From positions 1-37,208 of the forward strand of contig JAUWPW010000009.1 in the NCBI GenBank assembly GCA_030611415.1: a stretch of 37,208 nt of DNA, written 5' to 3'. Shown piece after piece: positions 8,073 through 22,727 of this stretch. This DNA comes from Candidatus Bipolaricaulota bacterium. GTDB lineage: Bacteria; Bipolaricaulota; Bipolaricaulia; UBA7950; UBA9294. The notes under the pieces were generated by a model, which saw nothing but the letters and a program-made list of their open reading frames with translations, was not told the DNA's origin and did not search any database. The position numbers were made by a program, and so were the translations under genes. Each line of letters begins with the position of its first letter. The stretch's first letter is position 1.

Positions 8073-9326
8073 GTGAAACAACGAATGTGGAGAGATGACC
8101 CTGAAAAGGTACTTCAACAGGCAGCTGACATCGTCCAGAGCGGTGCTATTTGCGATGAATGCTTCGGGCGTGCCTTCGCACAGCTGGGACACGATCTTAC
8201 AAACAGCGAACGGGGCAAGTCACTACGAATCATGCTTTGTATGCTGGGGATAGAGGGCAAGGCAGGCTCATGTTGGATCTGTAAAGGTTTCTTCAAGAAT
8301 ATCAATGCCTGGGTGAGTCGTGCCGTTGCATTATCTACTGGAATCGAGTTTGACAGTTACCTATTTGGAGTGAAGCTTACCCCAAGGCTTATCGAGATGG
8401 AGAGGTTGTTTAGTGAGAGATTCCGTACGAACTGTGCTGAGTCACTGAAACACGCGATAAATCGTATGATCGGCAAGGCATTTGAAGCGCAAGTTAGACA
8501 TGGGACACTTGATATTAGGGAACCTCATCTTTCCTTTGTAATTGACCTTGTTCGGAATACGATCGAGCTTCGGCTTCTTTCGCTATTTATTTATGGCCGG
8601 TATCAAAAACTGATACGGGGGATTCCTCAAACTCGCTGGCCCTGCCGTCACTGCAAGGGGAAAGGCTGCGATCATTGCAACTTCACCGGGAAGCAATATG
8701 ACGAATCAGTGGAAGAGCTTATAGAGAAGGAATTTCTGAACGCAGCAGGGTCAAACAGTGGGCACTTACACGGAGCTGGACGAGAGGATATAGATGCTCG
8801 TATGCTTGGGTCTGGTCGGCCTTTTGTGCTCGAGATTTGTTCGCCGCGTAGACGTAAGTTGGATCTTGTGTCGCTTCAAGCTGAGGTTAACGAGGCACAA
8901 GGAGGCAAGGTAAGAATAGGCAGGTTGAAGTTTGTTCCGCGTATGATGGTATCGAGAATTAAGGAAATACACGCAGACAAGACGTATGAGGCGCTCGTGT
9001 CATTTGAAGGCGATGTTTCTCGTGTTAGGCTAGGTCAAGCATTGGTTGAGCTTGTTGGAGAGATCGAACAGCGAACTCCGCAACGAGTTGCTCATCGCCG
9101 GGCTGACCGGATCCGTACTCGCAGGATCCATGAAATCGAAGGAGAACCAGTATCTTGTCGTCAAGCGAAGATCAGAATAAAGAGCGAGGGAGGCTTGTAC
9201 ATCAAGGAACTTGTCTCAGGTGACAATGGTCGTACAGCGCCAAGTCTGGCTAGTGGCCTTGGAATTGCTGTCCATGTTATCAAATTAGATGTAGTCGAGG
9301 TAACCTCGTCTCTGTTTCCATTTTGA
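8073..9326 (+). CDS. pus10: tRNA pseudouridine synthase Pus10 (archaeal/eukaryal type)
   Basis: CDECFGRAFAQLGHDLTNSERG, CRHCKGKGCDHCNFTGKQYDESVEELI, HGAGREDIDARMLGSGRPFVLEI (catalytic Asp), RTPQRVAHRRADRIRTRRI, GLYIKELVSGDNGRTAPSLA. Confidence 0.93.
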   Translation: MKQRMWRDDPEKVLQQAADIVQSGAICDECFGRAFAQLGHDLTNSERGKSLRIMLCMLGIEGKAGSCWICKGFFKNINAWVSRAVALSTGIEFDSYLFGVKLTPRLIEMERLFSERFRTNCAESLKHAINRMIGKAFEAQVRHGTLDIREPHLSFVIDLVRNTIELRLLSLFIYGRYQKLIRGIPQTRWPCRHCKGKGCDHCNFTGKQYDESVEELIEKEFLNAAGSNSGHLHGAGREDIDARMLGSGRPFVLEICSPRRRKLDLVSLQAEVNEAQGGKVRIGRLKFVPRMMVSRIKEIHADKTYEALVSFEGDVSRVRLGQALVELVGEIEQRTPQRVAHRRADRIRTRRIHEIEGEPVSCRQAKIRIKSEGGLYIKELVSGDNGRTAPSLASGLGIAVHVIKLDVVEVTSSLFPF

Positions 9327-12601: not shown

Positions 12602-13939
12602 GTGAATCAAAGTATTGCGAGGTGGATTCTGATGGAACTAGCTATACCGTTCTTAGCGATGTTTGTAGGAATAGCGATTGGTTTCCTTGCTTCATACATG
12701 CATAACGCCAGCGAAAGAACCCAACTGAAAGAGCGCCTTGCTATTGCCAAAGACAGACTTGCGAAAGATGAACAACTGCGTGAGGAAAACGAAACACTCA
12801 GAATCCAACGGGCTCAATTGCAGAAGGAACACGAAGTTGATGCAGAAAAGATGCAATGGGTAGAAGAGGCGCAAGAAAGGCTGCGAGAAGCATTCGAGGC
12901 CTTGGCAAGTAAGGCACTACGATCGAACGCTGATGCATTCTTGAAACGCACCTATGAGCAGCTCAACACCCTTCTTGCTAAGATAAAAGGTGATTGGGGC
13001 GTGCAAAGGGAGGAGGTAAGGAATCTTGTTCAGCCGCTCGAAAAGACATTAGCAACCATGGACATGCACGTACGGACGCTGGAGGAAAAACGCGAGGGAG
13101 CGTATAAAAGTCTGGAGCAACATCTTGCTTCCCTTTCCCAGGCTCATACCCAGCTTAGGGATACAACCGTTACCCTTGCGCAAGCCCTTCGATCACCTAC
13201 TGTGCGAGGGCGGTGGGGAGAGTTCCAGCTTCGACGCGTAGTAGAGCTTGCTGGTATGACAGCACAGGTGGACTTCGCTGAACAAGTTACAACTGATAAA
13301 GGTAGGCCAGACATGATCGTGTACCTTCCCAATGAAGGAATCCTGCCAGTCGATGCCAAAACACCAATGCAGGCTTATTTCGACGCCGTAAAAGCTAAGA
13401 CCGACGAAGAACGTAAGATGAAGCTAAGAGCTCACGTTCAAGCGATCCGACAGCGGGTACAGGAACTTGGGCGTAAGCAGTATTGGGCCCAGTTTGAGCG
13501 AGCGCCAGAGATGCTCATCATGTTTGTGCCAAGTGAGCCTTGCCTCGCAGCTGCTTTTGAGCTGGATGCCGAACTTCTGGAATCTGCTATTCGTAGACAC
13601 GTACTCATCGCAACACCACTAAGTTTGCTCGGGCTTCTTCGAGCAGTGGCGTATGGATGGCAACAGCATGAGATCACTGACAATGCTCAACAGATTGCTA
13701 AACAAGGCCAGGAATTATACGAACGCATAGTCACTTTTGTCCACCACCTGCAGAACACGGGCAAGTACTTGGGACAAACAATCAATGCCTACGATGCCGC
13801 GGTAGGATCACTGCAGCAGCGACTACTCCCTGCCGCAAGACGCTTCAAAGAACTAAACGCACAAACAAAAGACCTGCCCGAACCCTTGCCCATAGAGCGG
13901 AAGGTACGTCATATTCCCTCCACAGACCCTGATGAGTGA
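12602..13939 (+). CDS. rmuC: DNA recombination protein RmuC family
   Basis: Coiled-coil N-terminus; RGRWGEFQLRRVVELAGM, PDMIVYLPNEGILPVDAKTPMQAY. Confidence 0.92.
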   Translation: MNQSIARWILMELAIPFLAMFVGIAIGFLASYMHNASERTQLKERLAIAKDRLAKDEQLREENETLRIQRAQLQKEHEVDAEKMQWVEEAQERLREAFEALASKALRSNADAFLKRTYEQLNTLLAKIKGDWGVQREEVRNLVQPLEKTLATMDMHVRTLEEKREGAYKSLEQHLASLSQAHTQLRDTTVTLAQALRSPTVRGRWGEFQLRRVVELAGMTAQVDFAEQVTTDKGRPDMIVYLPNEGILPVDAKTPMQAYFDAVKAKTDEERKMKLRAHVQAIRQRVQELGRKQYWAQFERAPEMLIMFVPSEPCLAAAFELDAELLESAIRRHVLIATPLSLLGLLRAVAYGWQQHEITDNAQQIAKQGQELYERIVTFVHHLQNTGKYLGQTINAYDAAVGSLQQRLLPAARRFKELNAQTKDLPEPLPIERKVRHIPSTDPDE

Positions 13940-14046: not shown

Positions 14047-16158
14047 ATGAAAAAGCTTCTCATACTTCTGCTCGTTGTCACGAATATTTCTGTCGTTCTT
14101 GTATCATGTGCAACAGGAGATGAAGCGGTACTTCATCCGTCGCTGCGCAACATTCTCCAACAACTAGCACAAGACAAAAACATTAATCTTGCCAGATTTG
14201 TCGGCCAACTACAGGTATTGCCATCGAAACGTGCGAGGAACAGTCATGTTGATCTAGATGAAGGGCAATTCGGGGTACTGGTACAAACGCGCCGGGGGTT
14301 GTTTGGGCAAACCTTCCTTGGTATTCCTATACTTGTAAACACGGGAACGATTATCGGTATGCGCGTTAGCGCAAGAGAACTGTTGCTCTTGGCTGATTCG
14401 CCTTATGTTGCCTATATTGAGCCCTCATGGAAGGTAGAACCAAAGCTCGATTACAGCGTTCCTGCAATAAGAGCTGATCGATTACACTCAGCCATACCAC
14501 CGTTAACAGGAAAAGGGGTGATTATCGGCGCAGTAGACACAGGGATCGATTATTCTCACCTTGACTTCCGTTATGATTCAGACGGTGATGGCATCGAAGA
14601 ATCGTCTCGCATCTTGTCTATCTGGGATCAAACTAGCGGTTCTCTAGGCGCATATTACAGCAATAACGAGATCGAAAGTGATATTGCCTTTGGGCTTGGC
14701 CCAGAGAGCGGACAGGTCCATGAAGCAGACACAAACGGTCACGGGACACATCTGATGGGAATTGCGGCGGGTGATGGATCGTCGTCTGATAGCAGCCTGA
14801 TTGGAGTAGCTCCGGATGCGACCATCGTCATGGTCAAGACCTCTTTCTACACCTCGGATATTATCAGCGGGGTGAAGTATATCTTTGAACAAGCAAACAC
14901 ACTTGGTCTGCCAGCAGTGGTAAATCTGAGCTTAGGCGGACACGAAGGGCCGCACGATGGAACGAGCTTGTTTGAGCAAGGGCTATCCGAGCTAGCACAG
15001 CAGTATGGGCAGGCAATTGTTGTATCCGCGGGGAATGAAGGTGATAAGAAGATCCATGTAGGAGAGGAGCTCCACGGAGACTCTTTTACCTTTACTATCA
15101 ATCCTATTTCCCTGTCGCTTGAGCTACAGCTGTGGTATCCGGGTGAATCCAGCTTCTCACTTACTGTTACCCCACCGGTCGGCCCCTCTCTAACAGTGGA
15201 CAGAGGCAGCCACGCTAGCTCTCAGGCTGCGAATCTATACGTGGACAACGCTTCAAGTGGGACAAACCCAAATAACGGAGATAATGAGATCCTGGTATCC
15301 TTGATCGGTATCACTCCAGGAAGCAAGTGGTACTTCACCATAACTGATGAAGGCGGCGGCGGGCGGTTTGACGGATGGATTGTCACAAGCACGGGTGACA
15401 CAATTCTTGAAGGAGATACGGACTATACGATTGACGAACCAGGAAACGCATACGGTGTAATCACTGTAGGGTCATTCAACACCAAGGCATTGCACAATTT
15501 CCCTACTCAGAATGGAATTGGTGAAATCTCTTACTTTTCCAGCCAGGGACTAACTCGGGATGGGCGACAAAAACCGGAACTTACCGCCCCTGGGGCGTGG
15601 ATAGCTGCCGCTCTATCCAGTAACAGTTCTAGGGAAGGTCTGCCTGACCCTACGCATACCTTGCTTAGGGGAACCAGTGTTTCCGCTGCCCATGTGAGCG
15701 GGGTGATAGCATTGATGCTTTCGTGCAATTCAGAGTTAAGTAGCGAAGAGATGAAAATGAGACTAACACAGACTTCTATGAGTGACGCATTTACTGGGTT
15801 CACCCCTAACACTAGTTGGGGATATGGAAAGGCAAATGCCTACGAAGCGGTCGCCGCCATACGCCATCCCGGGGGAAGCGAAGCACATTCTCCCGCAGTG
15901 ACAGTGCTAAGTAATCCTGTCAGCAACCGTGCTTTATTTAGTTACACGCTCCCCAAAGGAACAACACAGGCAACGCTACAAGTCTATAATGTTGCAGGAG
16001 CATTGCTTTTCCAAGAAGAGATTGACCCAGAACACAACCAATATGAATGGAATCTTACTGGCAACTTAGGCAAACTACTGGCGAATGGACTCTACTTGTA
16101 TACGATTATCGCTGGGAATCACTGCTCGGAAGTAGGGCAATTGGTGATCATCAGATGA
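14047..16158 (+). CDS. Subtilisin-family (S8) serine protease, probable lipoprotein, with C-terminal T9SS/FlgD-Ig-like sorting domain
   Basis: Lipobox LVSC; triad GAVDTGID, NGHGTHLMG, GTSVSAAHVSG; C-term VLSNPVSNRALFSYTLPKGTTQATLQVYNVAGALLFQ...NGLYLYTIIAG...GQLVIIR. Confidence 0.9.
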   Translation: MKKLLILLLVVTNISVVLVSCATGDEAVLHPSLRNILQQLAQDKNINLARFVGQLQVLPSKRARNSHVDLDEGQFGVLVQTRRGLFGQTFLGIPILVNTGTIIGMRVSARELLLLADSPYVAYIEPSWKVEPKLDYSVPAIRADRLHSAIPPLTGKGVIIGAVDTGIDYSHLDFRYDSDGDGIEESSRILSIWDQTSGSLGAYYSNNEIESDIAFGLGPESGQVHEADTNGHGTHLMGIAAGDGSSSDSSLIGVAPDATIVMVKTSFYTSDIISGVKYIFEQANTLGLPAVVNLSLGGHEGPHDGTSLFEQGLSELAQQYGQAIVVSAGNEGDKKIHVGEELHGDSFTFTINPISLSLELQLWYPGESSFSLTVTPPVGPSLTVDRGSHASSQAANLYVDNASSGTNPNNGDNEILVSLIGITPGSKWYFTITDEGGGGRFDGWIVTSTGDTILEGDTDYTIDEPGNAYGVITVGSFNTKALHNFPTQNGIGEISYFSSQGLTRDGRQKPELTAPGAWIAAALSSNSSREGLPDPTHTLLRGTSVSAAHVSGVIALMLSCNSELSSEEMKMRLTQTSMSDAFTGFTPNTSWGYGKANAYEAVAAIRHPGGSEAHSPAVTVLSNPVSNRALFSYTLPKGTTQATLQVYNVAGALLFQEEIDPEHNQYEWNLTGNLGKLLANGLYLYTIIAGNHCSEVGQLVIIR

Positions 16159-17006
16159 TTTCGCGGCGAATACTATTGGTAGTACTCTTTGTCTTGTTTC
16201 TTGTCACAATAATGGTGCATGGAGACGATTTTGCTAACGTCGCGGCAATCTTCGAATTGGCAACAGGCACACGTTCCATAGGAATGAGTAAGACCCTTAT
16301 CGCCCTAGCGGACGATGAGAATGCCATCTTTTGTAATCCAGCAGGCCTAGGCAGTGTCAAGGATATTCGCTTCACTTCCTTATTCTCGCGACCGTTTGGA
16401 GCCTTCAGCTATGGAGCAATCGGCATCGCTGTTCCTCATCTAGGAATACTGGGAATGCAGTTGGATTCGGGATTGATCACAACAGAAGGAGGGGCTTTTC
16501 GTTACCTAAGCCAGGCGGCAGCCATCTCGGTCGGTGTAGCAATTGGTGGCTTTAGCCTAGGTGGACGAGTAAAGTTCTATCATCTTTCACAGCCCTTGTC
16601 GGGAACAGGTTGGGCGATTGATCCCGCTTGTCTCATTACGATCAATCGTGTGAAAATTGGCGTTATTGTGGAGAACCTTATTTCAGGACAGATTTCTTTT
16701 GAGAACGGTCATAATGAACATTGGCCCACTAAGATTGACATTGGAGCTGCCTTGACCATGCAGCCGTTCCTTACAGCCTATTGGAACTTGGCAGCGAGTA
16801 TTGCAGGGATCTTCACTGCCAACCCGCGGATAGCAGGAGGGGTTGAGGTATGGGTGAAAGACCTTGCCGCAAGGATTGGCTATAGCAAGAGCCAAGCCAC
16901 AATTGGCCTAACGCTGCGTTTTGAAACTTATCAAGTCGATTGGGCTTACGTTTTACACGCGGATCTTCCTGATAGTCACTATCTGTCTCTCACATTCAGG
17001 TTCTAG
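16155..17006 (+). CDS. PorV/PorQ-like outer-membrane barrel protein
   Basis: GTRSIGMSKTLIALADDENAIFCNPAGLG; C-terminal LSLTFRF; start MISRRILLVV overlaps the upstream stop (ATGA). Confidence 0.75.
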   Translation: MISRRILLVVLFVLFLVTIMVHGDDFANVAAIFELATGTRSIGMSKTLIALADDENAIFCNPAGLGSVKDIRFTSLFSRPFGAFSYGAIGIAVPHLGILGMQLDSGLITTEGGAFRYLSQAAAISVGVAIGGFSLGGRVKFYHLSQPLSGTGWAIDPACLITINRVKIGVIVENLISGQISFENGHNEHWPTKIDIGAALTMQPFLTAYWNLAASIAGIFTANPRIAGGVEVWVKDLAARIGYSKSQATIGLTLRFETYQVDWAYVLHADLPDSHYLSLTFRF

Positions 17007-17015
17007 AAGGAGAAA

Positions 17016-20000
17016 GTGAAACTGCTGCGCTATTTGGTGATCGTTACATTGCTTGTAATTGGGGTTTCCTTGCTGTCTCAGGGAGAGGAGGAAGCCTTCA
17101 AGGCTGACATCACTGGTGAGAAGACCTGGTGCCTACGCTATGGTTTCGGCTCCCCACAGGGATTAGCCCAGGCTGGCATGGCTCCGAATCAGCTATATCT
17201 TGATCAGTCACTTGCTGTAAACATCACAGGGAAAGCGCTTTCCTTCCTTACAATCAATGCTCAATTTGACGATCAGAAACCTATGAACATGCAATCGCTG
17301 ACAATTGATCTAGACGCTGGTGACCTGCGGGGCAAATTCGGCGATTTCCCTATCGCTGAGCAGGACACTTTTCTGGCTTATAACAAAGAGCTCAAAGGAA
17401 TGCGCCTAGATTATCAGATCGGCAAGGCACAACTAACCGGCATCGTCTCTCAAGTTGAAGGGATCTCAGAATCAAAGACATTTGTTGGTCGGACAGCGCA
17501 TGAGGAGGTGATTTTCTCTTCGTATTCCCCTGAACAGCCGTGGGTTAAACAGACGTACTTGCTCAACCTTCAAGGGCTGTACTATTTTGAGCTGGAAGAA
17601 CCTTTCATTGAAGGGTTCTCTATTGCGAGCATTAACTTAGTAGCGAATCAAGCCTTGCACTCCCTTCTTAGTGCCTACGGACTTGGCTATCTATTTGAAG
17701 ACATCACTAAGTCTCCATCCCAGGACCTTTCCAAGGCAAGTTATGCTGTTGTCAGCAAAGAACGAGACTTCCTTATCGTGAAAAGCGAGCCGCAAGCCCT
17801 CTTGCGAACGTGGCTACTGAAGTACATCAGACAGTACAACGAACAGACAGAGCTTAGTGATTCAGAAGAGAAACGCTATCCATTCAATATTGGAACCGAT
17901 TATGAACAAGCCTTTCTCAACCAACTTATGTCTTTTTGTTATCTGGGAGTTGAGGGAAGTGAATATCCGCTTCTAACAGGGAAACAGCAACGTTTCTATT
18001 ATCTCGGCCACGCTGATCTGAAAGAGGGATCAATCGTGGTAGAAGTGAGCTTGCATGGCGGGACATTTCTGCCGATCACTGAGGCTGATCTTCCCGAATA
18101 TGATGCATACCCATTTCTTAGTGAGGGAATCATCGAATTTGATTTCCCCAAACAGTTCTTTCAAGAAACGGGGAGCGCAGCAAGAGTCTCATTTGACTAT
18201 GCCGTGTCCGGGGATGTATTCATGCTTGGCCTATCCATTGTGCAAGGAAGCGAAAAGGTCTACTTAAATGGAGAACTCCTCGAGCGTGACATGGATTACT
18301 CTATTGACTACGAACTTGGCATGCTGATATTGTTCCGTGAAGTAGGCGAGGAAGATACGATCCGAATTGATTACGAACGTTTCCGTGGTGGTCTAGGCAG
18401 TGGTGCTGAGTATTCACGTAACTTCTACGGGTTGAGCCTTGACCTTCCCGCCACTGAGTCGCTTAACTTCAAATTGAGCCTACTACAAGCCGCTGACAAC
18501 CCTACCCCACTCAGCGATCCCGCAAAGGCTCATACTATGCCAAACACTCATACTATTTCGGGTGTGATTGGAGCAATTGACTTGGATGGCTTTCGCGCTA
18601 AGGTTGCGCTTGGATATAGCAATGATTGTTTCCCATTTGATGACAATCTGCGAGAAAATCTTCCCAATCTGGTAACTACGATCTTGGTCCTTGCTCAATA
18701 TACCCTTGTTGGCAACTTGAATGGGATTAGCGTGTATAACAACGGCGTCTGGAGAAGCTATACCACTGGGGCTGGTCTTTGCGGAAATCGAGTTCGCAGC
18801 ATGGTAAGCGATGGAAACACTGTGTTTATTGGTACGGACTCAGGGCTTACAGTACTTCATCTGAAAGGAGTATCTCCACTAGCCCACGTAGAGAACTGGC
18901 AGCGCTTTTACGAAAAAGATGGCCTACCAGATCCAGAAGTACGCGCGCTTGCACTTGTCGGCGAAAGCCTGTGGATCGGAACCACAGGTGGTCTAGCGCG
19001 AGTCAAGCCAGAAGAAATCGAAAGTGCTGAGGCCTGGAAGTCGTACACCCCTGATGTATTTCCAGAAATGAAAGGGATTCTCGCGCTTGCTGGAGATAAC
19101 ACCACCCTATATATCGGCACAGATCACGGTCTGTTTGCCTTTGACATAGCAAAGGAAGAAATGAGCGAACTTCACGGCATGAGTGGCGTTGCAGTGGGGA
19201 ATTTGGTCTTGGTCGATGGAACCCTGTACGCTAGCTCAGAGATTGGACTTCGTTCTTTTCATAAGGGAATAGGATGCGGCTGGCTTGTATTTGGCAGAGC
19301 AGTTCGGGCCAGTGCCATAGTCAATGGGAGTACATGGTACGCAACCGATGACGGTCTCTACCGTATCTCGGACCAGGAACCGTTCATCGATGATTGGGCG
19401 ATAACCGTACTGTCTGGCTCAGCAGTCGGGGGTTTATGGATAGGAAGCCGCGCAAATTCTAGCTATCAATTAAACGTGTGGCGAGCCGATAGTAAGCTGG
19501 AAACATTCACCAATTACGTAATGGGAATCGATGGGCGCGACAAGACCAGGTTTAGAGATATCTCGTCAGACGAGCACACAGACCGGGGGTTGTTCGCCAG
19601 AGCAAGTTTTAACCGCGACGTAGGCGTATTCAAGATCTCCGGAGACTTCGAGAGCATCGCTCCAGGTTTCTCATCCATAGGGCGCCTAGACCGCCGCGAT
19701 GTAACCGGTTGGAATATTTCAGTAGCTGGCGCCTTGGCACAAGGGATCAATATCGTTGCTTCCCATGGTTATCATATGATTAACCAGAGAAGCGAGGAGA
19801 AAAGAGACATCATGGATAATCAACTATCCTTTGCATGGCAGTTTGGTCCCTTGTTCAGCTTTTCCCTGAGAAACGAAATGGTAGATGATAATTGGTTACA
19901 CAGGGGACCTGATAGCACAGCTACTTCTTACAGCATTGGCCTGCAAAACGAATTCCTTGACCACGATCTTTCACTGGCTGTAGCTTGGAATGACGCGTTT

Positions 20001-20933
20001 GAGACAGCTATTTCCCATGAGCATTACTGGCGGGAGAGCGGACTTAGTTTTACGGGAACCTACCAGATAATCTCTGGATTCTCGATCTCGGGAAGCTGGG
20101 AATATCCGCTGATCTTTGATGCGAGCAGCACCCAGAGAAGCGAGAAAAGAAACCTCTCCATTAGTCTGTCCCGTAGCCTTGCCGCGGCTAACATAAGTGG
20201 AAAGTATGAACTGTTTACTAGTCGCTTCCTGCCTGATGGGAGTCTTTCTACGATTCATACCGCGTCTATTGACCTCCGCTTCAGCGAGTTCGCTCTTCTT
20301 GGTCTAGGATTTGTGCCCACATTGAACCTTGGTTTTGAGGCAAAGGAAGGGACTGTCGCCTGGGATGGACGAGCGAATGTACGCGTAAAGCTAAATGCAG
20401 TCTTTGCTCAAGTTACCTATCAGAAGAAGATGCTACAAGTTCAGGAAGAGCAGTCGCAACACGACGATCGCTTTCTCCTAAGCCTCGGGTATACAGGTAC
20501 TCCATACCTCAGGCCGAGCATTTCATATACTAGACGTACCAGCGTTGTTGCTTACAAGGAGGAAATACGTTCTGTTGTGGACCATGTTCTTAGTGGGCGG
20601 CTTTCGTGGGCGCCACAAGGGAGCTACCGCAATGATCTTTCCTTAGTGGTTAGGGCCGATGACAGTGATGAAATCACCGTTTCTGTACAGAACGATTTTT
20701 CCTACATCGTTTCCCAGCACATTTCCGCACGGTTTAACATTGATGGAAGCTACAAGATTGTTGGGGCTACGACTGGGAACGATCTTAGCCTTACGCTTGG
20801 CGGAACTGTTAACTACAGACTTTCCGATTCTTGGCGTGGGTCGCTTGCTATTTCCTACATCGCAGGAGAGACGGATACAACCACGCTCTATCACAGCACG
20901 TTGTTTGAGCTTTTCATCGCAGCAAAGTTCTAG
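17016..20933 (+). CDS. Very large outer-membrane protein: SprA-like strands, central two-component-regulator-type beta-propeller, C-terminal barrel
   Basis: VYLNGELLERDMDYSIDYELGMLILF; propeller repeats GTDSGLTVL, IGTTGGLARV, IGTDHGLFAF; C-terminal Phe (FIAAKF); preceded by AGAAGGAG. Confidence 0.75.
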   Translation: MKLLRYLVIVTLLVIGVSLLSQGEEEAFKADITGEKTWCLRYGFGSPQGLAQAGMAPNQLYLDQSLAVNITGKALSFLTINAQFDDQKPMNMQSLTIDLDAGDLRGKFGDFPIAEQDTFLAYNKELKGMRLDYQIGKAQLTGIVSQVEGISESKTFVGRTAHEEVIFSSYSPEQPWVKQTYLLNLQGLYYFELEEPFIEGFSIASINLVANQALHSLLSAYGLGYLFEDITKSPSQDLSKASYAVVSKERDFLIVKSEPQALLRTWLLKYIRQYNEQTELSDSEEKRYPFNIGTDYEQAFLNQLMSFCYLGVEGSEYPLLTGKQQRFYYLGHADLKEGSIVVEVSLHGGTFLPITEADLPEYDAYPFLSEGIIEFDFPKQFFQETGSAARVSFDYAVSGDVFMLGLSIVQGSEKVYLNGELLERDMDYSIDYELGMLILFREVGEEDTIRIDYERFRGGLGSGAEYSRNFYGLSLDLPATESLNFKLSLLQAADNPTPLSDPAKAHTMPNTHTISGVIGAIDLDGFRAKVALGYSNDCFPFDDNLRENLPNLVTTILVLAQYTLVGNLNGISVYNNGVWRSYTTGAGLCGNRVRSMVSDGNTVFIGTDSGLTVLHLKGVSPLAHVENWQRFYEKDGLPDPEVRALALVGESLWIGTTGGLARVKPEEIESAEAWKSYTPDVFPEMKGILALAGDNTTLYIGTDHGLFAFDIAKEEMSELHGMSGVAVGNLVLVDGTLYASSEIGLRSFHKGIGCGWLVFGRAVRASAIVNGSTWYATDDGLYRISDQEPFIDDWAITVLSGSAVGGLWIGSRANSSYQLNVWRADSKLETFTNYVMGIDGRDKTRFRDISSDEHTDRGLFARASFNRDVGVFKISGDFESIAPGFSSIGRLDRRDVTGWNISVAGALAQGINIVASHGYHMINQRSEEKRDIMDNQLSFAWQFGPLFSFSLRNEMVDDNWLHRGPDSTATSYSIGLQNEFLDHDLSLAVAWNDAFETAISHEHYWRESGLSFTGTYQIISGFSISGSWEYPLIFDASSTQRSEKRNLSISLSRSLAAANISGKYELFTSRFLPDGSLSTIHTASIDLRFSEFALLGLGFVPTLNLGFEAKEGTVAWDGRANVRVKLNAVFAQVTYQKKMLQVQEEQSQHDDRFLLSLGYTGTPYLRPSISYTRRTSVVAYKEEIRSVVDHVLSGRLSWAPQGSYRNDLSLVVRADDSDEITVSVQNDFSYIVSQHISARFNIDGSYKIVGATTGNDLSLTLGGTVNYRLSDSWRGSLAISYIAGETDTTTLYHSTLFELFIAAKF

Positions 20934-21086: not shown

Positions 21087-22727
21087 GTGAACAAGAAGAA
21101 GGTGCTCGTTTGTAGTGCCTGGCCATATGCTTCTGGAGTTCCCCATTTGGGAAACTTAGTTTCTTCGTTGCTTTCAGGCGATGTGTTCGCTCGGTATTAT
21201 CGACTGCGCGGGCACGAGGTTCTCTACGTATCAGGAACCGACACACATGGGGCGCGAATTGAGTACGAAGCGAAGAGACTCGGTATGTCTCCACCCCAGC
21301 TATCTCTGCAGCAGCATAAAGAGATAGTCTCCATAATTGACGCATTTGGCATAGAGTTTGACAACTATACCACTACAGAGTCGCCAACGCATAAACGCTT
21401 TGTGCACAACATCTATCTTCAGATGGAACAAAAGGGCTACATCACTCGTGCAGTGGAAAACAGAGCCTACTGTAGCAGGTGTCAGATGTTTCTGGCCGAT
21501 CGGTTCATTACCGGCATATGCCCCCGTTGTGGCGCGAACAGAGCAATGGGAAACCAGTGTAGCTTATGTGGGGCAATACTTGAACCGGAAGAGTTGATTA
21601 ACCCTACTTGCAGTATTTGTGGAGAGAGCAACATCGAGTTTCGCGCGAGTCAGCATTGGTACCTTGATCTCACAAAACTGACACCTCGATTGACTGATTA
21701 CGTCAATGGAAGGAAATTTCGGAAGAACGTTTACCGATTCACGAAACAGATGTTGGATGAAGGTCTACGACCCAGGGCAATGACCCGGGATATTTCCTGG
21801 GGAATTCCGGCGCCATTCGCAGGAGCGGAGGGCAAGGTTATCTATGTATGGGGCGAAGCTGCTCTAGGCTATGTTTCAGCAACAATCGAGCACTTTGGAG
21901 GAGAAGATAAGTGGAGGGAGTTTTGGTTTGGCGATGATGTCTGGCAGATCTATACCATTGGTAAGGATAACATTCCATTTCATACTCTGATTTTCCCAGG
22001 GCAACTACTTGCCTCCGGCGAGGCATATCATCTTCCGGATCAAATTGCTGCTACAGAATACTTGAACTGGATTGACGGAAGCAGGTTTTCCAAGAGTCGC
22101 GGGGTTGGGCTTTACTGCGATCAGGCAGCTCAGGTAATGGACCCTGAGCTATGGCGCTTCTATCTGCTTTACAACCGACCAGAGGAACGTGACGTTAATT
22201 TCTCGTGGCAGGAACTAGGAAAGGCTATCAATGGAGTCTTCATCTCCAATGTGGCTAATCTTGCAAATCGTGTGCTGTCCTTTATTCAAACTCGCTACAA
22301 GGGAGAAGTCCCTTCCAATGCTGTCGACCTCGAAGTAATTGCACATATAACAAAAGCAATTTCGAACTATGAAGCGGCAATGAATGCAGGAAATCTGAGC
22401 CATGCCTTGCGTACTACCTGTGCTTTAGCGGTTTTTGGAAATGAGTATTTTCAGCGTAAGGAGCCCTGGTCATCCGGTGATCAGCGTGCAGTAACAAGTG
22501 CTTTCCATCTCGTAAAGGCAATAACAGTGATACTCTTGCCTTTTGTTCCTCAATTTGCTAGTTCCGTTCTTGAAGTTATTGGGATTTCTTGCCCGTCTTG
22601 GGAAACAATAACAGGGCTAGCCGAGAAAAACGTACTCACTAACGGACGCGTCCTTATCCCTCGCATTGACATAGATGAGATCAAAGAACGTGCTAGGCCA
22701 GCAAAAGCAGAAGAGAATATCACTTGA
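21087..22727 (+). CDS. metG: Methionyl-tRNA synthetase (double-Zn-knuckle, archaeal/spirochaete-like)
   Basis: PHLGN (HIGH), CSRCQMF...CPRCGAN...CSLCGA...CSICGES, SRFSKSRG (KMSKS); GTG start. Confidence 0.95.
   Translation: MNKKKVLVCSAWPYASGVPHLGNLVSSLLSGDVFARYYRLRGHEVLYVSGTDTHGARIEYEAKRLGMSPPQLSLQQHKEIVSIIDAFGIEFDNYTTTESPTHKRFVHNIYLQMEQKGYITRAVENRAYCSRCQMFLADRFITGICPRCGANRAMGNQCSLCGAILEPEELINPTCSICGESNIEFRASQHWYLDLTKLTPRLTDYVNGRKFRKNVYRFTKQMLDEGLRPRAMTRDISWGIPAPFAGAEGKVIYVWGEAALGYVSATIEHFGGEDKWREFWFGDDVWQIYTIGKDNIPFHTLIFPGQLLASGEAYHLPDQIAATEYLNWIDGSRFSKSRGVGLYCDQAAQVMDPELWRFYLLYNRPEERDVNFSWQELGKAINGVFISNVANLANRVLSFIQTRYKGEVPSNAVDLEVIAHITKAISNYEAAMNAGNLSHALRTTCALAVFGNEYFQRKEPWSSGDQRAVTSAFHLVKAITVILLPFVPQFASSVLEVIGISCPSWETITGLAEKNVLTNGRVLIPRIDIDEIKERARPAKAEENIT

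Follow-up and report, generated by a model that had tools for sequence, protein, structure and literature searches.

A Candidatus Bipolaricaulota gene module that looks like a pared-down relative of type IX secretion

The question raised by the locus

Type IX secretion (T9SS) is described only for the Fibrobacteres-Bacteroidetes-Chlorobi group (PMC11205867). Three neighbouring genes in a Candidatus Bipolaricaulota genome (GCA_030611415.1) raise the question of whether a related export route exists in this distant and little-known phylum. A preliminary description, made from the sequence alone, had proposed a minimal T9SS unit made up of a lipobox-bearing subtilase with a sorting domain, a PorV/PorQ-like barrel and an SprA-like outer-membrane protein. 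Here, we analysed the whole stretch of 37,208 nucleotides (contig JAUWPW010000009.1, positions 1 to 37,208; hereafter the window), the genome it belongs to and related genomes. A literature search, which did not cover preprints or most subscription papers, gave no published link between T9SS and this phylum; the one paper holding both terms has them only in its reference list.

Genes and domains of the module

The three adjacent genes are present and are what had been suspected, with one exception, the lipobox. The features are as follows.

14047..16158, + strand: S8 subtilase (703 aa) with signal peptide and C-terminal T9SS type-A-like sorting domain; D164, H232 and S544 as probable catalytic triad
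15889..16158, + strand: C-terminal sorting domain (CTD, FlgD-Ig-like)
16155..16158, + strand: ATGA, stop of the subtilase gene overlapping the start of the PorV-like gene
16155..17006, + strand: PorV-like outer-membrane barrel, 283 aa
17016..20933, + strand: SprA-like outer-membrane protein, 1305 aa, with inserted propeller
17085..18650, + strand: N-terminal SprA-like part (residues 24-545), with early strands, alpha/beta region and motif region
18189..18377, + strand: SprA family match, residues 392-454
18660..19499, + strand: inserted beta-propeller, residues about 549-828
19578..20930, + strand: C-terminal run of long barrel strands (about 20 in the predicted model up to residue 1223, counted by eye; the last 82 residues were not modelled)

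The S8 domain of the first gene is clearly recognised (Pfam PF00082, E 1.8e-40). D164, H232 and S544 are invariant in 28 aligned relatives and, as expected for this family, are likely to form the Asp-His-Ser triad. The CTD scores 22.2 bits with TIGR04183 in the whole protein, just under the cut-off of 23, but 27.0 bits when the domain is scored alone and 26.2 bits in a search of the own genome. The lipobox (LVSC) is not conserved. Of three same-genus relatives (loci L075-L077) one has Cys and two have Tyr at this position, and of 37 subtilase ORFs of at least 400 aa scanned for a lipobox-like pattern only the window, L035 (same genus) and L070 (inside a hydrophobic stretch) show it. A lipoprotein is therefore unlikely.

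The second gene starts at the ATGA overlap. A longer start at 16047 is not supported, since the PorV profile begins at residue 4 of the 16155 form. The protein matches the PorV/PorQ family NF033709 with E 2.6e-15, below the curated cut-off (57 of 90 bits). Its AlphaFold2 model has a pLDDT of 93.5, and the top solved structure is PorV (Z 30.7 over 256 residues at 2.6 A). In a profile search PorV was the only PDB hit (2.4e-4).

The third gene follows after a gap of 9 bases. It matches the SprA family TIGR04189 with E 1e-6 at residues 392-454, which include the SprA-like strand motifs noted in the preliminary description; the curated equivalog cut-off is not reached (26.2 of 200 bits), but 28 of 34 relatives match the same family. 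By sequence the protein is a remote SprA homologue (E 9.7e-13, two colinear stretches). SprA entries are also the top Foldseek matches of the AlphaFold2 model (2.3e-19 to 5e-17), although the TM-score normalised to the query is only 0.29-0.36 and the model, with a pTM of 0.67, is a fragment of 1200 of 1305 residues, in which about 34 strands were counted by eye. The inserted propeller is like those of Bacteroides hybrid two-component sensors (4a2l, 1.8e-29; Z 27.5 to 3v9f by structural alignment) and weakly like PorZ (NF052228, 1.1e-4). The structural alignment of the model with VIA-align was filled by propellers, which says little about the barrel. Pfam SprA_N was not found in the own genome, but this profile gave no hit in any control either. 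A scan for promoters and terminators gave counts no higher than in shuffled sequences and was uninformative.

Distribution of the module

SprA-like genes occur in 89 of 100 genomes of the phylum, in 37 of 38 near-complete genomes and in 37 of 39 genera. The order S8-PorV-SprA is kept in 36 of 41 loci read. Outside the phylum, S8-CTD protein, PorV and SprA-like gene stand together in two loci (L112 and L119), and in another order in a third (L130). Omp85 was found in 88 of 100 genomes, own included, which indicates an outer membrane.

A degenerate T9SS recently acquired from Bacteroidota-group bacteria would fit the reported confinement of T9SS to that group. However, the wide presence in the phylum speaks against it, as does the fact that identity falls with kinship, from 80-81% in the genus to about 30% in the class; in addition, five Bacillota-labelled relatives form one clade. 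Although no tree with Bacteroidota SprA was built, we consider recent acquisition very unlikely.

PorV-like genes lie directly behind genes of CTD proteins

The CTD is found on two other exported-looking proteins in the same genome, and the module is thus only part of the system: the genome contains three CTD proteins and three PorVs in three pairs, and one SprA-like gene. The hydrophobic N-termini were seen by eye only. Among 33 CTDs examined, 24 match TIGR04183, 23 the PorU model and 8 the PorZ model. Altogether, 83 of 85 PorV-like ORFs lie directly behind a CTD protein, against 12 of 537 control ORFs, of which 5 are SprA-like genes and 6 other CTD genes. FlgD-Ig folds are common, but this linkage rules out a chance resemblance of the CTD. 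PorV and CTD also diverge together (r 0.78 over 81 pairs, 0.88 over the 44 pairs whose cargo is not the module subtilase; 0 of 2000 permutations as high), which can, however, also come from co-inheritance of neighbouring genes.

The pairing is not strictly one-to-one across the phylum. The CTD count equals the PorV count in 35 of 100 genomes, exceeds it in 51 and is lower in 14. In families f5-f9 CTD proteins far outnumber PorVs (310 to 65), so that many cargos must share a carrier or use none, and 11 of 94 CTD ORFs read have no PorV behind them.

It is conceivable that the SprA-like protein is not the translocon for these cargos but a surface-architecture or lipid-handling barrel, and that CTD proteins are displayed with their PorV partner by another route. 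The PorV-like fold is close to FadL transporters (Z 27.8 against 30.7 for PorV), SprA-like genes are missing from 11 of 100 genomes, 8 of which still have PorV, and in the 22 stretches chosen for other PorV genes no SprA-like gene lies in the stretch. On the other hand, 36 of 41 loci keep CTD protein, PorV and SprA-like gene together, and ten of the 11 genomes without the SprA-like gene are under 90% complete. Moreover, SprA and PorV are the only barrels hit by the two profiles among solved structures, and they are partners in one solved complex (6h3i). We regard this alternative as unlikely.

Sortase and motor components

The C25 sortase family (PorU, PF01364) is absent from the own genome, which is 93% complete, and was found in 4 of 100 genomes of the phylum. 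MotA/ExbB-type motors are absent from 99 of 100 genomes, while the same model gave hits in 8 of 14 controls. GldM was not found in 18 genomes, 9 of them Bipolaricaulota, and GldN was not found in 100 genomes, but neither profile gave a hit in any control, and these absences are not firm. No motor-like gene lies near the module, which is flanked by rmuC and metG in the window.

A full T9SS might be present, with PorK/L/M/N diverged beyond the profiles used, so that only the outer parts are recognisable. SprA and PorV themselves score far below the curated cut-offs, GldL was not among the families searched, and in known T9SS release of the PorV-cargo complex needs the motor (PMC10994853). The absence of the MotA/ExbB family from 99 of 100 genomes and of motor-like neighbours speaks against this explanation, which appears improbable but is the strongest of the alternatives.

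Discussion

Our data support the preliminary interpretation as far as homology is concerned: the 1305-aa protein is a remote SprA homologue, and the CTD is present on other exported-looking proteins. A minimal T9SS, however, is a functional claim and is inferred. The lipobox is not conserved, and other cargo-PorV pairs lie elsewhere in the genome.

We consider it more likely than not that the module is a type IX-like outer-membrane export unit of Bipolaricaulota. In the model we propose, the cargo is exported by Sec into the periplasm and enters the pore of the SprA-like protein. Its CTD would bind the loops of a PorV-like barrel docked on that pore, and the cargo would leave sideways still held by PorV, with one SprA-like channel serving three cargo-PorV pairs in this genome. 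We infer that PorV stays bound as a dedicated surface anchor instead of being recycled, because PorU is missing and no lipopolysaccharide genes are reported for the studied relative (PMC6092417). It has been reported that PorU is anchored through PorV and that porU mutants accumulate PorV-bound cargo (PMC5562754). The S8 protease of the core module stands where PorU stands in known systems and may process or release cargo, and the propeller in the SprA-like protein recalls PorZ. Work without a motor is likewise inferred, and such a machine would have to work differently from known T9SS.

The Bacteroidota T9SS (structures 6h3i and 8gl6) shares with this module an SprA homologue, a PorV homologue and cargo ending in a type-A-like CTD. 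Here, no C25 sortase was found in the own genome and no MotA/ExbB family motor in 99 of 100 genomes, the SprA-like protein has about half the length of SprA and carries an inserted propeller, several PorVs lie each behind its own cargo gene, and an S8 protease is part of the core. In Flavobacterium johnsoniae, type B cargo pairs stoichiometrically with a dedicated PorP-SprF shuttle (PMC12618676); there too the cargo gene is directly followed by the gene of its own outer-membrane shuttle and some cargos are orphans. Here, however, the CTD is type-A-like and the shuttle PorV-like, whereas in F. johnsoniae all type A cargo share one PorV. In the P. gingivalis attachment complexes PorU-PorV and PorZ-PorQ (PMC5562754) a CTD-bearing surface protein is held by a PorV-family barrel, as we infer here, and a propeller protein belongs to the set; in our module the protease is an S8 subtilase and not a C25 sortase, and the propeller is fused into the SprA-like protein.

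A further possibility, which is tentative, is that Bipolaricaulota and some Bacillota-labelled bacteria use a T9SS-type translocon that runs without any proton-driven motor. Each cargo would bring its own single-use PorV, which docks on the one SprA-propeller channel, draws the cargo out as it leaves and remains as its anchor, with an S8 protease replacing the C25 sortase. The motor and sortase would then be later Bacteroidota additions to an older, widespread core.

T9SS is described as driven by a proton motor. A conserved SprA-PorV-CTD core across a distant phylum and in Bacillota-labelled genomes would push the origin of the translocon back, and would give a natural test of which parts are essential and whether the motor is. 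The dedicated PorV behind each type-A-like cargo makes carrier specificity testable.

Genomic context of the module

The stretch analysed is contig 52 of a 1.33 Mb genome in 78 contigs that is 93% complete. The nearest loci, which are 80-81% identical over the 1305-aa protein, carry the name Candidatus Bipolaricaulota (Acetothermia, OP1). The module consists of three genes on the + strand and lies between rmuC and metG. The features of the region are, in order:

6355-6990 (-), a tyrosine recombinase (Phage_integrase 8.5e-31), about 7 kb before the module
8073-9326 (+), a Pus10 tRNA pseudouridine synthase of the archaeal type in this bacterial genome (TIGR01213 477.6 bits, cut-off 200)
12602-13939, rmuC
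first gene of the module (+), an S8 subtilase of 703 aa
second gene of the module (+), a 283-aa barrel whose ATG overlaps the stop of the subtilase (ATGA)
third gene of the module (+), starting 9 bases on, a 1305-aa protein
21087-22727, metG

The 1305-aa protein is a remote SprA homologue

The single sequence matched the SprA family TIGR04189 (1e-6) over residues 392-454 and PorZ (1.1e-4) over residues 683-747. Of 34 relatives, 28 match the SprA model and seven the PorZ model; three also match a phage tail tube model (best 8.7e-6), which we take for chance. Among solved structures, a profile of the whole family hits two-component propeller sensors (4a2l, 1.8e-29, residues about 555-825), SprA as the only outer-membrane barrel (4.5e-7) and some further propellers, among them 5m11 (0.014). 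With the propeller left out, we used a profile of residues 1-545 (37 rows, five of them from propeller-less relatives in other phyla). SprA then rose to 9.7e-13 with two colinear stretches, residues 38-155 on SprA 147-269 and residues 405-501 on SprA 695-789, while all other hits had an E-value above 0.6. The AlphaFold2 model of residues 24-1223 (mean pLDDT 85.7, pTM 0.67) shows long strands, an alpha/beta region, a propeller at about 549-828 and then a run of about 20 long strands. Foldseek ranks three SprA entries first (2.3e-19 to 5e-17), but the TM-scores are low (0.29-0.36), and a comparison with VIA-align was taken up by propellers. Thus, the homology to SprA is firm, but the full barrel is not proven. 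SprA-like proteins in which the N-terminal block and the motif block lie next to each other, without the propeller, were found in Riflebacteria and other genomes (loci L137, L140, L145, L151 and L153; 977-1040 aa, L151 1395 aa). No PorV was found on the same strand of these stretches.

The 283-aa protein is PorV-like and the subtilase carries a sorting domain

The 283-aa protein matches the PorV/PorQ family NF033709 at 2.6e-15, which is below the cut-off of that model. A profile of 27 relatives has a single PDB hit, the PorV chain of the SprA-PorV complex 6h3i (2.4e-4). The predicted structure has a pLDDT of 93.5 and PorV is its top fold match, both with Foldseek (4.1e-10) and by Z-score (30.7, with 256 residues at 2.6 Å), FadL following at 27.8.

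The subtilase is an S8 protease with the triad residues invariant in 28 relatives. Its last 90 residues score 27.0 bits with the type A sorting-domain model (cut-off 23) and also match the PorU model. The preliminary description had assigned a lipobox to this protein; it is not conserved, since two of three relatives from the same genus have Tyr instead of Cys.

Distribution of the module

The family of the 1305-aa protein is present in 89 of 100 genomes of the phylum, and in 37 of the 38 genomes that are at least 90% complete and at most 5% contaminated. We read 41 loci, the window and one stretch from each of 40 of the 88 other genomes with a match. Altogether, 36 keep S8-PorV-SprA in order on one strand. 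Of the other five, L062 is cut by a contig end after PorV, L043 and L051 have the SprA-like gene alone, and L059 and L063 have CTD-PorV pairs convergent to it.

Outside the phylum, long relatives were found in MAGs labelled Bacillota or Firmicutes (one source titled Limnochordaceae) and in one labelled Thermotogae, and nine such loci were scanned. The order CTD protein-PorV-SprA is kept in L112, L119 and L126, and also in L132 but with split frames. In L110 PorV comes first, and in L130 the CTD protein and PorV follow the SprA-like gene. In L121, L128 and L129 no PorV or CTD was found in the stretch. Of the six CTD proteins at these loci, three were tested for domains (L112, L119, L130) and all three carry S8. 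Five Bacillota-labelled rows form one clade in a FastTree.

PorV-like genes are paired with CTD proteins

We built a CTD profile from the 28 module subtilases and ran it over all ORFs of 72 loci (41 module loci, 22 chosen for other PorV genes including the two of the own genome, and nine outside the phylum). Of 85 PorV-like ORFs (84 genes, as L132 is split), 83 have a CTD protein directly upstream on the same strand. The two exceptions are L062 (contig end) and L110 (CTD protein directly downstream). The profile was trained on the module, so the independent part of this result is the 44 pairs whose cargo is not the module subtilase. As a control, 537 other ORFs of at least 250 aa were examined, of which 12 have a CTD protein upstream; five of these are SprA-like genes, six are further CTD genes and one is unrelated. 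In the other direction, 83 of 94 CTD ORFs are followed by a PorV and 11 are not. PorV and CTD distances go together (r 0.78 for 81 pairs with the two L132 pieces dropped, 0.78 for 37 module pairs, 0.88 for 44 others), with none of 2000 permutations as high, although relatedness adds to this. Two of the CTD proteins followed by a PorV, at loci L190 and L200, carry Cohesin-like plus PKD domains and might represent a surface scaffold.

The own genome has exactly three PorVs and three CTDs, in three pairs. One is the module, the second contains an LTD plus two PKD protein of 599 aa, and the third a 989-aa protein (locus L155, 7692-10661) without a Pfam hit and with repeats seen by eye, which is paired with the most diverged PorV of the genome. 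TIGR04183 alone had found one of the three CTDs, and the profile used to find all three included them among its 33 rows. Across the phylum, PorV and CTD counts correlate (Spearman 0.76), but CTDs exceed PorVs in 51 of 100 genomes, mostly in five families of the phylum (f5-f9; 310 CTDs, 65 PorVs), so there are orphan cargos as in F. johnsoniae type B. Three genomes of the phylum (G048, G058, G061) encode 36 to 51 CTD proteins with only 3 to 5 PorV genes, unlike the paired state of the own genome.

Sortase, motor and envelope

The C25 peptidase family of PorU was found in 4 of 100 genomes of the phylum (G024, G071, G073 and G089) and not in the own genome. MotA_ExbB was found in 1 of 100, while the same model matched in 8 of 14 controls. 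TonB, Tol and Mot type energisation thus seems absent from the phylum despite signs of an outer membrane. GldN was found in 0 of 100 genomes and GldM in 0 of 18, of which nine are Bipolaricaulota, but neither profile matched in any control, so these two results do not prove absence, and GldL, GldK and SprE were not part of the search. Omp85 is present in 88 of 100 genomes and in the own genome, so an outer membrane is likely. For the closed genome of the phylum, no lipopolysaccharide genes and a possible simple diderm envelope have been reported, and, as far as we saw, only Sec is named for secretion (PMC6092417).

Relation to known type IX secretion and possible mechanism

Published work confines T9SS to Bacteroidetes (PMC4793230) or to the FCB group (PMC11205867; PMC12421860), and no link with this phylum was found in the literature searched. 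The module shares three outer parts with T9SS, but one defining part, PorU, was looked for and not found in the own genome, and the motor is unproven; we therefore do not call it a T9SS in the strict sense.

It has been reported that in known T9SS PorV docks on the side opening of SprA, the CTD binds PorV loops inside the pore, and energy drives the PorV-cargo complex away (PMC10994853). PorU sits on PorV, and without PorU cargo stays on PorV (PMC5562754). In F. johnsoniae, type A cargo share one PorV, while type B cargo have dedicated shuttles in stoichiometric amounts (PMC12618676). Here, a type-A-like CTD is joined to dedicated PorVs, and the sortase and, as far as tested, the motor are absent. 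Release might be driven by folding of the cargo outside or by docking of newly made PorV, but both are guesses. The simplest inference is that PorV is not recycled but remains as the anchor. The S8 protein may be both a cargo and the processing protease, as PorU is.
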